Shown here piece after piece: positions 2,507-8,263 of a stretch of 64,000 nt of DNA. The notes under the pieces are model-generated. The model saw nothing but the letters and a program-made list of their open reading frames with translations, made no database searches and was not told the origin of the DNA. This stretch comes from Candidatus Ozemibacter sibiricus. GTDB taxonomy: Bacteria > Muiribacteriota > Ozemobacteria > Ozemobacterales > Ozemobacteraceae. Position 1 is the stretch's first letter, and every line of letters starts with the position of its first letter. A program made the translations under genes and the position numbers. The stretch is taken from positions 62,001-126,000 of the forward strand of contig QOQW01000014.1 of NCBI GenBank assembly GCA_003327425.1. The letters are read 5' to 3'.

Positions 2507-4408
2507 GTGACCGCCGGCGGGCGTCGGGTCGGGGCGGCTGCATCGGCCTCTGAGGCTGGCGATGGTCGGCGCTTTCGCCGCAAGAAAGGGAAGCCAAGGG
2601 TGCTCGATATCTGGGTGATCGGGTCGGTGATCGCGCTGTCCACGCTAGGCACGATCATCGGCCTGCTGGCGCCGCGCGCCCTGGGGCTGGCCACGCCGCC
2701 GGAATACGGGAAGGGCCGGTATGTCGGCGGGCTGCCCGTGGTGCTGGCCACCCTCTGTCCGCTGCTGCATCCCGGCGTGCCGCTGACGACGGCCGACCTG
2801 GCCATCCCGGTCGGCGTCTGCCTGGCGGCCGGGCTCGGCCTGGCGCGCGACCTGCGTCGGCTGCGCCGGACCACCGGTTTGATCATCCTGACGCTGTGCT
2901 CCTTGGGGTGGGCCACCTGGAATCACGGCTTCGCCACCAGTTGGATGTGGTTCATCGAGGGGTTCTGGCCGCCGGTCGTCGTCCTGTCGCTGCTGGCCGC
3001 GTCGCTCGTCTACGAGATGCCGTTGCTGCTGACCGCGGTATCGGGCCTGACCTTCCTGCTGTTCTTCCCGACCCAGATGGCGACTCCGCCGTGGGCGGTG
3101 CTGTTCACGCTGCCCCTGCTGCTGGTGCCATCAGCCATGCTGGTGATGTGGTTCGGCTTCGGGCGGATGCGGCAGCTGGGGCATTCGGGACTGTTCGCCC
3201 TGAGCGCGTTGCTGGCCGGCGTTTCGCTGCTGGGGCGGTCGAAGACGCTTCTGCTCTTCGGGCTGCTGGTGCCGGCCATGGCGACGCTGTTCCCGGTGGC
3301 GGCGGTCTGCGCCCTGATTATCGCGTCGTTTCTGGGGAATGAACTCTACCAGGAGGGGGCGGCGGGAGGCGGCAGCCGGGCGGCTGGCAGCCGGACGCGG
3401 GTCTGGACGCTGCAGCGCGAGAGCGTGGTGCTCTACACCACGCTGGTCTTCCTGGCGGGGAATTTCGTCGTCCTGCTCGGGGTGGTCGATGCGCCGTGGT
3501 GGGCCTGGCTCTTCCTGGCGGTGTTGCTGGCTGGCACGGTGGCCGGTTTCTGGCGGACTTTCGCCCGGCGCGCGCCGCGCTCGGCGAACGGGGCCGTCGG
3601 CGGGCGGGTGCGCATCCTCGGGGTGGCCATCGATCCGGTCACACCAGACGAGGTGCTGGACCGCCTGGCTGGCTGGCTGGCCGGGCCGCCGGGCTTCTAC
3701 CATCTGGTGACCGCCGATTCCCTGGCGGTGCGGCGGGCCCGCGAAGATCCGGCGTTCGCGCGACTGCTCGAACAGGCCGCTCTGACGGTGCCGGACGGTG
3801 CGGGTCTGGTCTGGGCCGCCGATTTCCTGGGCACGCCGGTGCCCGGTCGGGTACCGGGGGTGGCGATGGTGCAGGAGATCTGCCAGCGGGCGGCCCGGCA
3901 GGGGTGGCCGGTGTACTTCCTGGGCGCGCGGCCGGGGGTGGCCCAGGCCGCCGCTGCCGCGCTGGCGGCGCGCTTCCCTGGCCTGACGGTGGCGGGCGTG
4001 CAGCATGGCTTCTTCCCGGCCGGGGGGCCGGAGGAAGAAGCGGTGCTGGCGGCGGTGCGGGCGGCCCGCCCGGCCATCGTCTTCGTGGCGATGGGAGTGC
4101 CGCGGCAGGAGGAGTTCATCGATCGGTTGCGGGCCCGGCCCGGGCTCGATCATCCGCTGGTGGCGATCGGGGTGGGAGGCAGCTTCGATGTGCTGTCGGG
4201 CCAGATTCCCCGGGCGCCGGTGCTGATGCAGCGGTTCGCCCTCGAGTGGCTGTTCCGGCTCTGGCAGGAACCGGCCCGCCTCGATCGGATCGCCCGCATT
4301 CCGGGCTTCGTCGTGCAGGTGCTGCGGGCCAAGTGGCGCTCCGATCAGCGGCTGCCCTCGTCGCGACGCGCCGCGGCGGCTCGTTCCGCCGACTCTCGCC
4401 CCGCGTGA
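2507..4408 (+). CDS. Polytopic membrane domain fused to WecG/TagA/CpsF-family glycosyltransferase
   Basis: Residues from about 367 to 603 are a WecG/TagA/CpsF (GT26) domain, with VTADSLAVRRAREDP, TVPDGAGLV, MGVPRQEEFIDR and GVGGSFDVLSGQIPRAP. GT26 enzymes add a sugar to a polyprenyl-linked acceptor, for example ManNAcA or ManNAc to Und-PP-GlcNAc, at the inner membrane. The first ~330 residues form about nine hydrophobic helices. They contain GRYVGGLPVVLA and GLGLARDLRRLR, which resemble the GG and DD regions of MraY/WecA phosphoglycosyltransferases, except that the catalytic DD reads RD. The likely role is cell-surface polysaccharide or glycolipid synthesis. The start used is a GTG; the in-frame GTG at 2600, with a purine-rich AAGGGAAG upstream, would drop 31 low-complexity residues and may be the real start. 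GT26 proteins are usually about 250 residues, so this is a fusion. Confidence 0.82.
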   Translation: MTAGGRRVGAAASASEAGDGRRFRRKKGKPRVLDIWVIGSVIALSTLGTIIGLLAPRALGLATPPEYGKGRYVGGLPVVLATLCPLLHPGVPLTTADLAIPVGVCLAAGLGLARDLRRLRRTTGLIILTLCSLGWATWNHGFATSWMWFIEGFWPPVVVLSLLAASLVYEMPLLLTAVSGLTFLLFFPTQMATPPWAVLFTLPLLLVPSAMLVMWFGFGRMRQLGHSGLFALSALLAGVSLLGRSKTLLLFGLLVPAMATLFPVAAVCALIIASFLGNELYQEGAAGGGSRAAGSRTRVWTLQRESVVLYTTLVFLAGNFVVLLGVVDAPWWAWLFLAVLLAGTVAGFWRTFARRAPRSANGAVGGRVRILGVAIDPVTPDEVLDRLAGWLAGPPGFYHLVTADSLAVRRAREDPAFARLLEQAALTVPDGAGLVWAADFLGTPVPGRVPGVAMVQEICQRAARQGWPVYFLGARPGVAQAAAAALAARFPGLTVAGVQHGFFPAGGPEEEAVLAAVRAARPAIVFVAMGVPRQEEFIDRLRARPGLDHPLVAIGVGGSFDVLSGQIPRAPVLMQRFALEWLFRLWQEPARLDRIARIPGFVVQVLRAKWRSDQRLPSSRRAAAARSADSRPA

Positions 4409-4672: not shown

Positions 4673-5650
4673 CTACTTCTTGGGAGCGGCAGGCGCGGTC
4701 TGGGCCTGGACCTTCTTGATCATGTCCTCGAAGGCGGCCTTGTCCATGGCCAGGGTCAGTTTGGCCGTGGTCTCGCCGCCTTCGATCTTGGCGGCCTTGA
4801 AGGCCTGGGAGATGGCGGGCACGTCCTGCGACCAGGCGGCCATGGCGTCCATGACGTTCTTCAGGGCGTCTTTCACCTTGGCGGTGTCATCTTTCTTCTC
4901 GACTTCGCCGGCCAGTTCGAAGGCGAACTGCTTGTCGTAGGCGAGGCTGAACAGCACGGCCTTCACCGCGGCGAAATTGGCGCTGACCGGGTCGGTCTGG
5001 GCTTCCTTGACCCACTGCGGGGAGACCACGACTCCGCCCCAGAGGGCAGCCTCGGGGCTGGCTTGCTTGACGACCTTGGCGAAGGCGGCGTTGGTCATGA
5101 TGCCTTTGTCCTTGCCGGTCTTGATCTTGATGACGTGATCGACGATGGCGGGAGTGCCGAGCAGGATGGTGTTCTTGTCGAGGAAGACGCTGAGACCGGT
5201 CTCGACCGCCTTGCCTTTGAGGGCGTCGAACCCGCCGACCTTCTCGAGGCTGACCTGGGCCGCCATGTCAGGATCGGCCTTGACCAGCTCGATGATGCGG
5301 CCGGTGTCGAAGTCGCCATGGAACAGGAGGCCGGGCATGGGATGACCGGTCTCCTGGTCGGTGAGGGCGGTCAGGAAGACGACGACGGTCTTGAGGCTTT
5401 TCTTGGGATCGAGGCCGGTCTTCTGGACGAAGTCCTGCATGGCCTTCTGCGACTCCTCGGTATTGGCGCCGAACTGGTCGAAGAGCTTCTGGATGATGTC
5501 GAGACCGACGACCTTGGGCATGTTGATCTGCATGACGAACTGGGCTTCGATGGGCACCAGGTCGAGCAGGGCGCCGAAGGCGGAACCGGTGGACAGGGCC
5601 AGGCACAGCAGGCTGATGGCAAGCAGGGACCGGATGGCTGGGCGTTTCAT
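4673..5650 (-). CDS. Secreted DUF3352-like protein of unknown function
   Basis: This is a 325-residue protein with an N-terminal signal peptide (about residues 1-27, ending in SAFGA), so it is probably exported. The mature part has an alternating pattern of short strands and helices, with phrases such as GLDPKKSLKTVVVFL and LLFHGDFDTGRIIELV. These resemble DUF3352-type proteins, which lack a biochemical function. GAGGAGGAAG stands nine bases before the ATG, and a sigma-70-like promoter lies about 100 bases upstream. A protein of similar length, signal peptide and layout is encoded at 20035-21159 and may be a distant paralogue. It ends in a lysine- and alanine-rich tail. Confidence 0.75.
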   Translation of the reverse strand: MKRPAIRSLLAISLLCLALSTGSAFGALLDLVPIEAQFVMQINMPKVVGLDIIQKLFDQFGANTEESQKAMQDFVQKTGLDPKKSLKTVVVFLTALTDQETGHPMPGLLFHGDFDTGRIIELVKADPDMAAQVSLEKVGGFDALKGKAVETGLSVFLDKNTILLGTPAIVDHVIKIKTGKDKGIMTNAAFAKVVKQASPEAALWGGVVVSPQWVKEAQTDPVSANFAAVKAVLFSLAYDKQFAFELAGEVEKKDDTAKVKDALKNVMDAMAAWSQDVPAISQAFKAAKIEGGETTAKLTLAMDKAAFEDMIKKVQAQTAPAAPKK

Positions 5651-6058: not shown

Positions 6059-6361
6059 TCTTCCGCTGGAAGAATGGGATACTGCAAAACTCGCAAGCCA
6101 TGCGCTTCATCGTCGTGGTTCTGGTGCATTCAAGTTAACGGCCAGGCGAGGGTTGGCGACATCGCCTTGACAGCGAACGAGTTCAAGATGATCGAATGCC
6201 TCAAGCAAGAAAATTGGCTCTCCGTCGTGTATAATGGTGCGAGCTGTTCAGAGATCCATCGGTTGCAGAATCCTGTGGCGATGCCGTGGGGATCCGTCGT
6301 CCGGATCGAACCCTACCACCTCGAGGTCGATATGATCAAACCTCGGAGCGAGAAATGCTGA
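6059..6361 (+). pseudogene. Remnant of a DUF3883-like (Mrr-fold) C-terminal domain
   Basis: The frame opens at 6059 and ends at TGA 6359-6361. The conceptual product contains IQVNGQARVGDIALTANEF followed by WLSVVYNGASCSEIHRLQNP. This matches the pattern of DUF3883 C-terminal domains (IEVKG..., LT.NE, WLYVVYN, I.NP) seen in restriction and helicase proteins. The core IEVKG reads IQVNG, so the nuclease-like Glu and Lys are replaced, and no N-terminal part is found in any frame. The stop overlaps the ATG of the ATPase gene (ATGCTGA), which suggests a once intact, translationally coupled gene. GC content drops here, as in the ATPase-TOPRIM pair. The preceding stretch 5782-6058 holds no recognisable gene. 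Confidence 0.5.
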
Positions 6362-7680
6362 AGCGAGTGAAAATAACCAACTTCAAGTCTCTGAGGGATT
6401 TCGAGATCGAGTTTGGCCCGCTGGGAGTCATTGTGGGGCCCAACGCCGCCGGGAAGAGCAATCTCTTCGATGCGCTGCAGCTGTTGTCCCGCCTGGTGAC
6501 GTGCAAGACCCTGAAGGAAGCGTTCTCGCCACCGTATCGCGGCCTTCCCCTCGAATCGTTTTCGTTCGGCAAGGAAGGTATCGAGGGTTTGCTCAAAGAA
6601 GCGAGCGCGGCGTTCACCATCGAAGCAGATGTCGAGTTGTCGCCTTCAACCATCGATCGTGTCAACCGGCACATTCGGGAGATGAAACGGCCCAACAAGC
6701 ATGGGGAACACCCCACCACCGACGCCAGAAACGAGGCGGCGCTGGCCTTCGTGCGAGAACGGAACCTCCGATACCGGATCGAGGTCGAGATTCTGCCCCA
6801 GTCGGGCATCCTGCGAGTGGCCGATGAGTTCCTCTGCCCGCTCAATCGGGAGGGAAGAGAGACCAAGCGGCGGCGCCCCTTCTTGGAACGAATGGGAGAC
6901 CGCATTCATCTGCGTATGGAGGGGCAAGCCCATCCCACCTATTTCGAGCGGTATCTCGATCACAGTATTCTGTCCTTACCCTTGTATCCTCCGCACTATC
7001 CGCACCTTACCGCTTTTCGGCAGGAATTGGCCAACTGGCTGTTCTTCTACTTCGAGCCGCGCGAGCGGATGCGGGTGGCCAACCCCATCAAAGAAGTGCG
7101 CCATATTGGCATGATGGGCGAAGAGTTGGCAGCGTTCCTGAATACCCTCAAAGCGACCGAGCCGGCCCAGTTTGAGGCCATCGAAAAAGCGCTGCGAATC
7201 ATCATTCCCTCGGCCAGAGGATTGGATATCAAGCCAAATTCCCTGGGCGAAGTGGAATTGCGCCTCTTGGAGGGCGACACCCCCATTCCGGCCAGAGTGC
7301 TTTCGGAAGGCACGCTGCGGATCATCGGCCTGCTGGCTCTGATGAGTTCTCAGGATCCTCCCGCTCTGATCGGTTTCGAGGAGCCTGAGAACGGGATCCA
7401 TCCACGGCGGATCCAGTTGGTTGCCGAACTTCTCAAAAGCCGGCTGGCGGAAGGGAATACGCAAGTTCTGGCCACGACCCATTCGGCGATCCTGTGCGAC
7501 TACATTCCCCCTGACTGCCTGCTTGTCTGTCGGAATGACCAAGGTCGATCGGTGATCACCCCGTTCACCGGCGAGGGCCTGTTCCGCAAGCCGGCCATCG
7601 ATGACGCGCTGGCCGAGCCCCCGATGTTCGAGGAAACCCCCACTTCGGTCCGCATCCTCAGGGGGGACCTTGATGCCTGA
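6355..7680 (+). CDS. SMC/OLD-like AAA ATPase of a probable defence pair
   Basis: This is a 441-residue ATPase. The N-terminal strand VKITNFKSLRDFEIEFG is typical of the AAA_15/AAA_21 RecF-like group. Walker A is GPNAAGKSN (about 28-36), the ABC-type signature LSEGTLRI begins at about 316, Walker B LIGFEEPENG lies at 338-347, and the switch His is in ATTHS (373-377). The ATG at 6355 has GGAG at 6345-6348. The gene overlaps the next one by eight bases (ATGCCTGA), so both proteins are made together. Such ATPases sense invasion and control a nuclease partner in OLD, PARIS, AbiL and RloAB systems. Antiphage function is inferred from this pairing. The lower GC content suggests acquisition. Confidence 0.85.
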   Translation: MLKRVKITNFKSLRDFEIEFGPLGVIVGPNAAGKSNLFDALQLLSRLVTCKTLKEAFSPPYRGLPLESFSFGKEGIEGLLKEASAAFTIEADVELSPSTIDRVNRHIREMKRPNKHGEHPTTDARNEAALAFVRERNLRYRIEVEILPQSGILRVADEFLCPLNREGRETKRRRPFLERMGDRIHLRMEGQAHPTYFERYLDHSILSLPLYPPHYPHLTAFRQELANWLFFYFEPRERMRVANPIKEVRHIGMMGEELAAFLNTLKATEPAQFEAIEKALRIIIPSARGLDIKPNSLGEVELRLLEGDTPIPARVLSEGTLRIIGLLALMSSQDPPALIGFEEPENGIHPRRIQLVAELLKSRLAEGNTQVLATTHSAILCDYIPPDCLLVCRNDQGRSVITPFTGEGLFRKPAIDDALAEPPMFEETPTSVRILRGDLDA

Positions 7681-8263
7681 TCTGCTGCTGTTCGTGGAAG
7701 ATACGGCCCATGAAACGTTTTTGACCGCTTTGTGTCGCCGGGTGGTGGCCGAAGCAGGCCTTTCTCTCGCCATCCATTCGCGGCATGCCCAGGGCGGGGC
7801 CGGTCGGATGACCCGCGCGCTGCAGGAGTTTTTCGTCGATCTTCAGCGCGCGGCCACGGCGCGGCCTGCGGCGGTGATCGTCGCCCGGGATGCCAATTGC
7901 CTCGGTTGGACCGAGCGGCGGAAGGAATTGTTGAAAGTCCTGCGGCGCAGGGAGGCCTTTCCGGTCATTCTCGCTATTCCGGATCCCCACATCGAACGAT
8001 GGTTCCTGATCGATTCCCAGGCGTTCAAGGCCGTGTTCCGTCGTGGTTGTGCGGCGCCCGATCAGAAATGCGCCCGGGATCGGTACAAGAATCTGTTCCA
8101 GCAGGCCATCCGCGAAGCCGGCCGAATCCCCCTTTTCGGGGGATACGAACACGTTCCTGATCTCGTCCGCCACCTTGACCTGGAGTTCCTGGCGAGGCAG
8201 GATCGTTCTTTTGCCCTGTTCATGCAGGATTTAACCAATGCTCTGAATGAGCTGAAAAGATAG
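7673..8263 (+). CDS. TOPRIM-like partner of the ATPase (DUF4276/RloB-like)
   Basis: This is a 196-residue protein that begins LLLFVEDTAHETFL. The acidic residue after strand one, the Asp in ARDANC (about 73) and the segment DPHIERWFLID (about 104-114) resemble the pattern of RloB/DUF4276 TOPRIM-fold proteins, where the last motif is usually NP.FE.W.L. These proteins are thought to be metal-dependent nucleases released or activated by the neighbouring ATPase. The ATG overlaps the ATPase stop. No other subunit follows; the next gene, an exported hydrolase, is 37 bases away. Family assignment rests on motif pattern and context rather than strong similarity. Confidence 0.65.
   Translation: MPDLLLFVEDTAHETFLTALCRRVVAEAGLSLAIHSRHAQGGAGRMTRALQEFFVDLQRAATARPAAVIVARDANCLGWTERRKELLKVLRRREAFPVILAIPDPHIERWFLIDSQAFKAVFRRGCAAPDQKCARDRYKNLFQQAIREAGRIPLFGGYEHVPDLVRHLDLEFLARQDRSFALFMQDLTNALNELKR

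Follow-up and report, generated by a model that had tools for sequence, protein, structure and literature searches.

A WecG/TagA-type glycosyltransferase fused to a WecA-like membrane domain with lost catalytic motifs in Candidatus Ozemibacter sibiricus

Peripheral glycosyltransferases must locate a rare lipid-linked acceptor in the membrane, and for TagA, a member of family GT26, the proposed answer is membrane-triggered folding. In the part of its published description drawn on here (PMC6493773), Asp65 is the proposed catalytic base, Asn39 adjoins the acceptor N-acetylglucosamine (GlcNAc) in a model, and a C-terminal appendage is required for activity; the authors propose that this appendage takes up its fold at the membrane and that the membrane drives the dimer to become a monomer. 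In the membrane enzyme MraY, the sections of the structural account used here (PMC4790310) give D117, D118, D265 and H324 as catalytic residues inferred with support from mutations, D265 as a ligand of Mg2+, and a groove around transmembrane helix 9b (TM9b), leading to D117, as the proposed site of the lipid carrier. Here we describe a gene that joins a WecA-like membrane domain to a WecG/TagA glycosyltransferase. It lies in a 64,000-nucleotide stretch (the window) of contig QOQW01000014.1 of Candidatus Ozemibacter sibiricus, in a genome of 5.68 Mb. An earlier note on this DNA, made from the letters alone, had called the product a fusion of a degenerate MraY/WecA-like domain with a WecG-type enzyme and had suggested that the first half could serve as an acceptor-binding platform.

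The two halves of the fusion protein

The fusion protein consists of a membrane domain followed by a WecG/TagA (GT26) glycosyltransferase (Table 1). Its reading frame was originally given as 2507–4408 on the plus strand, which is stop-free and encodes 633 aa from GTG 2507. GTG 2600 is the likelier start, because two proteins of the same genus align only from residue 29–31 of the 633-aa reading; the residues ahead of that point diverge in both (L006 and L007), and the A/G-rich AAAGGGAAG lies just 5′ of GTG 2600. Residue numbers throughout are counted from this codon.

The membrane half of the window protein has no Pfam match even at an E-value of 10, PF00953 (cut-off 27 bits) included, and its link to the WecA-type polyprenyl-phosphate sugar-1-phosphate transferases (PNPTs) is therefore shown by profiles and structure. 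A profile of 17 fusion N-terminal domains aligned over 316 columns with a profile of 23 intact PNPTs from the same phylum (hhalign, E 2.7e-11, probability 97.3%). With two reversed and ten block-shuffled profiles as controls, E-values were 6e-4 to 0.086 over 25–49 columns, which rules out a chance likeness of two hydrophobic profiles. At E≤10, the fusion profile matched just two chains in the whole set of PDB sequences, both MraY (4.2e-4 and 0.028), and in one relative (G026) PF00953 itself matches the N-terminal half at E 2.7e-4, under its curated cut-off. By these profile comparisons the membrane half is homologous to WecA-type PNPTs, and it is WecA-like rather than MraY-like (E 4.6e-11 against 18 WecA-type rows and 0.029 against 5 MraY rows, the latter a small set).

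Structure prediction and structural comparison, a kind of check that the earlier note had proposed, agreed with the profiles. For an AlphaFold model of the isolated half (331 aa, pLDDT 72.3, pTM 0.70), the best 29 Foldseek matches were all DPAGT1 or MraY, with unrelated chains starting at E 0.13. VIA-align, a re-alignment of Foldseek's own list, gave Z 16.8–21.2 for 18 PNPT entries with 252–273 residues aligned, and 6.8 for the next entry. In a full-length model (pLDDT 72.4), one half matches TagA and the other half PNPTs. The membrane half is thus predicted to keep the ten-helix core of the MraY/WecA/DPAGT1 fold. A flippase or polymerase fold, which would have overturned the original assignment, was rejected: all listed Foldseek matches below E 0.03 are PNPTs, and VIA-align agrees. 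The loops between the eleven predicted helices carry 16 Lys and Arg residues on the cytosolic side and 1 on the periplasmic side, placing the GT26 half in the cytosol provided that the model is correct in its eleven helices.

Motif positions were read in the hhalign register, with 17 rows of fusion family f1 set against 23 intact PNPT rows. The catalytic Asp-Asp had been noted to appear as RD, and this is indeed the reading at residues 83 and 84; among intact rows, Asp occupies the first of these positions in 22 of 23. The motif NxxNxxDGxDGL reads L132/S135/Y138/E139/P141 in the window, and across f1 both Asn residues are gone, Gly is replaced by Glu and the second Asp by Pro in every row, while the first Asp is left in 2 of 17. 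At the position of MraY D265, f1 has Asn in six rows, Ser in six, His in three and Asp in two. The HxHH motif of the fifth cytosolic loop, whose last two His residues are present in 23/23 and 22/23 intact rows, has no counterpart in the window, where residues 250–274 contain no His. The residues needed for metal binding and catalysis in MraY are, in this alignment, lost from the membrane half and, judged by its sequence, the first enzyme is dead. The description of it as partly inactivated was right about inactivation and understated its extent, which by sequence is thorough, at four motifs. Of the Gly-Gly pair also claimed as a retained feature, Gly43 holds (16/17 family rows) and Gly44 is often Ala.

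Other features of the membrane half are conserved. The columns of the two prolines in TM9 (Table 1) hold 18 Pro and 5 gaps, and 18 Pro and 5 Phe, in the intact rows, and these prolines may shape the polyprenyl groove. Charged or polar residues conserved in at least 75% of the 17 rows occur at positions 83, 84, 132, 139, 190, 247, 273, 274 and 288, and in the model all of them except 288 fall in cytosolic loops or ends. Conservation averages 0.55 for cytosolic columns, 0.43 for periplasmic columns and 0.52 for helix cores (cytosolic vs periplasmic, p 0.002). The exchange of an acidic for a basic residue beside a retained Asp suggests a metal-free site for a diphosphate, in f1 alone.

The GT26 half is complete, as had been claimed, scoring 200.3 bits against PF03808 (cut-off 27.4) and 150.3 bits against TIGR00696 (cut-off 69). 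It reaches neither the equivalog model for TarA, the N-acetylmannosamine (ManNAc) transferase (NF041710, 157.8 bits vs a cut-off of 350), nor that for WecG, the ManNAcA transferase (NF002980, 110.9 vs 323). Residues T371, D399, R417, Q503, E504, R553, R560 and R563 correspond to TagA T37, D65, R83, Q167, E168, R214, R221 and R224. All 26 fusion proteins keep T371, D399, Q503, E504, R538, R553 and R560, and R417 and R563 are each kept in 25. Asn39 of TagA is not kept; the residue here is Asp373, with Asp in 23/26. This half keeps the residues that TagA needs, and it is probably a working glycosyltransferase.

Table 1. Features of the fusion gene in the window
Feature	Coordinates	Strand	Remarks
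Fusion coding sequence	2600..4408	+	602 aa from GTG 2600
N-terminal membrane domain, residues 1–322	2600..3565	+	predicted WecA-type PNPT fold, 11 predicted helices; catalytically degenerate by sequence
Arg83-Asp84, at catalytic Asp-Asp (MraY D117-D118)	2846..2851	+	first position R13/K3/E1 of 17; second D 17/17
Glu139-Met140-Pro141, new motif at GxD of NxxNxxDGxDGL	3014..3022	+	E 17/17, M 16/17, P 17/17
Gly-His-Ser-Gly 194–197, at GDxG	3179..3190	+	His195 at Mg2+-binding Asp (MraY D265)
Pro225 and Pro232, long helix 9	3272..3295	+	kept in 23/26 and 26/26 fusion proteins
Trp269-x-Leu-x-Arg-Glu, cytosolic loop ahead of helix 10	3404..3421	+	W 26/26; region of HxHH in intact enzymes
Eleventh helix, residues 300–321, outside matched PNPT core	3497..3562	+	predicted topology puts GT26 half in cytosol
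GT26 (WecG/TagA) catalytic domain and C-terminal appendage, residues 336–580	3605..4339	+	
Thr371 = TagA Thr37	3710..3712	+	26/26
Asp399 = TagA Asp65, proposed catalytic base	3794..3796	+	26/26
Arg560 = TagA Arg221 of appendage	4277..4279	+	26/26

Spread of the fusion and a second kind of fusion

The suggestion that related genomes be searched for the same fusion led to a widespread family: the two halves occur in one open frame in 33 of 39 genomes of the phylum that were compared, copies in two of these (G013 and G028) being cut by contig ends. In G004 the N-terminal half alone was seen, at a contig end, and two genomes that are 67% and 84% complete (G010 and G016) gave no GT26 match. Between the window and two congeners, the ratio of nonsynonymous to synonymous substitution rates (dN/dS) is 0.20 and 0.25 for the N-terminal half and 0.14 and 0.20 for the glycosyltransferase part, and both halves are under purifying selection in these comparisons. 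A pseudogene or an assembly accident is ruled out by the single open frame in 33 genomes and by dN/dS well below 1 in the two pairs.

Proteins of families f2–f8 are 22–28% identical to the window protein over their length. Six family groups among them each match intact PNPTs, with E-values of 9e-5 to 5e-9 and reversed controls of 0.015 or worse; the pooled alignment gave 2e-16 and 1.2e-16, the reversed control covering the six groups and not the pool. In a tree of 48 GT26 rows, all 21 f1 fusions group together as a clade (support 95/100), and a single clade of all 31 fusions is not rejected (p-AU 0.499) in a tree with long branches and weak deep support. The sequences are compatible with a single origin of all PNPT-GT26 fusions.

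This survey covers the phylum, and an active WecA-GT26 fusion may exist elsewhere. A scan of genome contigs with two family-specific peptide patterns returned 20 loci, 14 of them titled Riflebacteria, Rifleibacterium or Ozemobacteraceae, 3 unclassified and 3 otherwise named. Loci titled Erysipelotrichia, Methylomirabilis and Proteobacteria (L106, L107 and L115) encode fusion relatives, the title of L107 being probably a misnomer. One scan of viral contigs found no close viral relatives.

Three genomes also carry a different fusion, in which GT26 is joined to a monotopic phosphoglycosyl transferase (PGT; PF02397): G003 (L123), G007 (L097, 4217–5599, minus strand) and G014 (L124). DE[LF]PQ is present in each of seven separate PGTs from the phylum, which are a small fraction of those found. 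In alignment with these seven, the matching residues of the fusions are VHLPR, DKSAL and NRIPV, and the K[FL]R[ST]M stretch is missing. In the DE pair, which we take to be the catalytic dyad of monotopic PGTs, Glu is lost from all three fusions and Asp from two. The GT26 domains of these proteins form a distinct clade (support 100/99). From the alignments and tree, the phylum seems to have produced GT26 fusions with a dead initiator on two occasions, the second independent of the first, and catalytic losses in two unrelated initiators tied to GT26 argue against mere decay. Tentatively, and at somewhat worse than even odds, Riflebacteria may have fused two unrelated PGT superfamilies to GT26 as dead, acceptor-presenting pseudoenzymes that bind undecaprenyl-diphosphate-sugar (Und-PP-sugar), their former product. 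Separately, a stand-alone GT26 gene in L129 (G027, contig C25) adjoins, on the same strand, a separate monotopic PGT gene with DELPQ.

Possible roles of the membrane half

We consider it about an even chance (roughly 0.5) that the fusion is a working GT26 enzyme carried by a dead WecA, the latter acting as a membrane platform that holds the Und-PP-sugar acceptor. This reading is favoured because the TM9 prolines are kept and conserved charged residues gather where the active site used to be, and from these features an acceptor-binding role of the membrane half is plausible. Purifying selection on the N-terminal half, the gene cluster of G022 and the parallel monotopic PGT-GT26 fusions also speak for it. 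At the outset, an initiator would have been linked to the enzyme that follows it in the pathway; since Und-PP-sugar is made by another enzyme, the initiator half would then have lost its catalytic activity. It would now be a platform whose polyprenyl groove, with its TM9 prolines, holds the acceptor; in f1, Arg or Lys83 and Arg273 would hold the diphosphate in place of Mg2+ and Asp. The extra helix would keep the GT26 half on the cytosolic face, where it would add a second sugar, putatively ManNAc or a relative, to the held acceptor, and the tether would spare it the membrane-triggered change from an inactive dimer to an active monomer that is proposed for TagA.

Such a platform calls for a source of acceptor, and a separate active WecA had been named as something to look for. 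Besides MraY (L003), the window's genome encodes an intact WecA-type enzyme (L002, with DD) and a divergent one (L004, with ED and DGLNG and no HxHH). It also has two proteins of the UDP-GlcNAc 2-epimerase family (PF02350) above cut-off, which are a possible supply of UDP-ManNAc. In 36 genomes searched, a PNPT was found in 35 and a monotopic PGT in 35; a WecA-type PNPT with HxHH is present in 29 (G022, G024 and G034 among them), a count that leaves G017, G028, G031 and G035 unread or unresolved. A separate WecA is usual, not universal.

Several observations weigh against the platform. The sole PNPT of two fusion-bearing genomes, G006 (93% complete) and G009 (91%), is MraY, and none was found in a third, G013 (70%); the acceptor there must therefore come from elsewhere, and all three have a monotopic PGT. 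The metal-site Asp persists in 2/17 f1 rows and also in L008 and L033, and at the conserved positions K132 and R190 the genus of the window has Leu and Met. Arg or Lys83 and the Glu-Met-Pro motif are confined to the 17 f1 rows, so that a phosphate-holding role is not general: in the 9 rows of f2–f8 the first-Asp column holds Val, Glu, Ala, Ile, Leu or Arg, and the second Asp is lost too. In three genomes, f5 has a GT26 protein of 269–272 aa without a membrane half. The orientation of the two domains in the full-length model is untrustworthy (pTM 0.56, linker pLDDT about 42).

The membrane half might instead bind no acceptor and be an anchor and switch, a dead WecA that keeps the GT26 appendage folded and active at the membrane. 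The requirement of TagA for its appendage and the proposal that the latter folds on the membrane (PMC6493773, as above) fit this idea, as do the low identity of f2–f8 to the window protein and the existence, in three genomes, of an unrelated membrane module fused to GT26, which would suit an enzyme in need of any anchor. Eleven helices are, however, a costly anchor for an enzyme that retains a membrane appendage of its own; the conserved polar residues gather at the former active site rather than being spread evenly; and both anchors once made the acceptor, a coincidence that chance would not favour. Overall we regard a pure anchor as unlikely, with perhaps one chance in a few.

Other explanations give the dead half a partner or leave it alive. 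It could form a WecA-type dimer with an active WecA encoded by another gene, which would hand Und-PP-sugar directly to GT26; MraY is dimeric in the crystal and in crosslinking, according to the sections of PMC4790310 used here, and the intact WecA-type enzyme found in 29/36 genomes adjoins the fusion gene in G022. Such docking is improbable, given that G006, G009 and G013 have the fusion without any WecA-type PNPT and that in the window's genome the fusion gene lies on contig C2 and the WecA-type genes on C27 and C24. That the N-terminal half is still an unusual active phosphotransferase making its own acceptor would agree with the invariance of Asp84 in f1 and with the three fusion-bearing genomes that have no other WecA-type PNPT. 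The loss of the first Asp, of NxxNxxDGxDG, of the metal Asp (His195 here) and of HxHH, the inferred catalytic role of D117, D118, D265 and H324 in MraY (PMC4790310), and the further loss of the second Asp in f2–f8, make a bifunctional enzyme very improbable. We prefer the reading in which a dead WecA holds the acceptor for an attached GT26 enzyme.

Neighbouring genes and comparison with known systems

No polysaccharide operon was seen around the fusion gene in the window. Upstream lies an isocitrate/isopropylmalate dehydrogenase gene, and downstream, convergent with the fusion gene, a gene for an exported-looking protein (4673–5650, minus strand), whose N-terminus resembles a signal sequence by eye and which matches no Pfam family at E≤0.001. 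Across the loci of 20 relatives no neighbour is common to all, the most frequent being a homologue of this downstream protein (10/20). Eighteen neighbours inspected by eye included one glycosyltransferase-like protein, in L102. The only locus with pathway genes is that of G022 (L149, 1005–5311), where genes for an intact WecA-type PNPT, a Polysacc_synt_2 protein and the fusion adjoin on one strand. The 269-aa f5 GT26 genes of G025 and G030 (L093 and L094) lie between genes resembling ribulose-phosphate epimerase and Mfd, with kinase-like and PASTA-like proteins nearby (all names by eye). Further along the window, a gene for an AAA_21 ATPase (6286–7680) overlaps one for a DUF4276 protein (7601–8263), both on the plus strand. 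Their best PADLOC models are HEC-01A (E 7e-55) and HEC-01B (E 1e-5), making them a candidate anti-phage defence pair.

The fusion belongs to a known kind, an enzyme with a pseudoenzyme and a GT26 domain, in an arrangement without a description among the literature matches listed, as judged by titles and the openings of abstracts. If the platform reading is true, a natural chimaera retaining the upstream enzyme's shell without its chemistry would separate acceptor presentation from catalysis, and would represent a class of pseudoenzymes that bind the product of their former reaction and hand Und-PP-sugar to the attached next enzyme. There is also a warning for annotation, since the membrane half receives no Pfam name and a label of WecA based on its fold would mislead.

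TagA/TarA of T. italicus (5wb4, 5wfg, 7mpk and 7n41) resembles the C-terminal half in its GT26 fold (Foldseek E 2e-12, TM-score 0.92 over the target), in active-site residues T37, D65, R83, Q167 and E168 and in R214, R221 and R224 of the appendage; it differs in being peripheral, with no membrane domain, and in having Asn39 where the fusion has Asp373. WecA shares with the membrane half its fold, its position as nearest profile and a layout of 11 helices (PMC6133551, in the portion used here), whereas the fusion has lost the catalytic motifs, carries GT26 and has a membrane half without a Pfam match. MraY and DPAGT1 are the best structural matches of the predicted half (VIA-align Z 16.8–21.2), yet MraY has 10 helices with both termini periplasmic (PMC4790310), while in the fusion an eleventh helix leads to an enzyme predicted to be cytosolic. 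The monotopic PGT-GT26 proteins of G003, G007 and G014 likewise combine an N-terminal initiator lacking an intact catalytic pair with GT26, and differ in belonging to the unrelated membrane family PF02397 and to a separate GT26 clade. PglB of Neisseria is also a PGT fused to a second enzyme domain; unlike the fusion described here, it is termed bifunctional, its PGT half being taken as active, in the part of PMC6133551 on which we draw.

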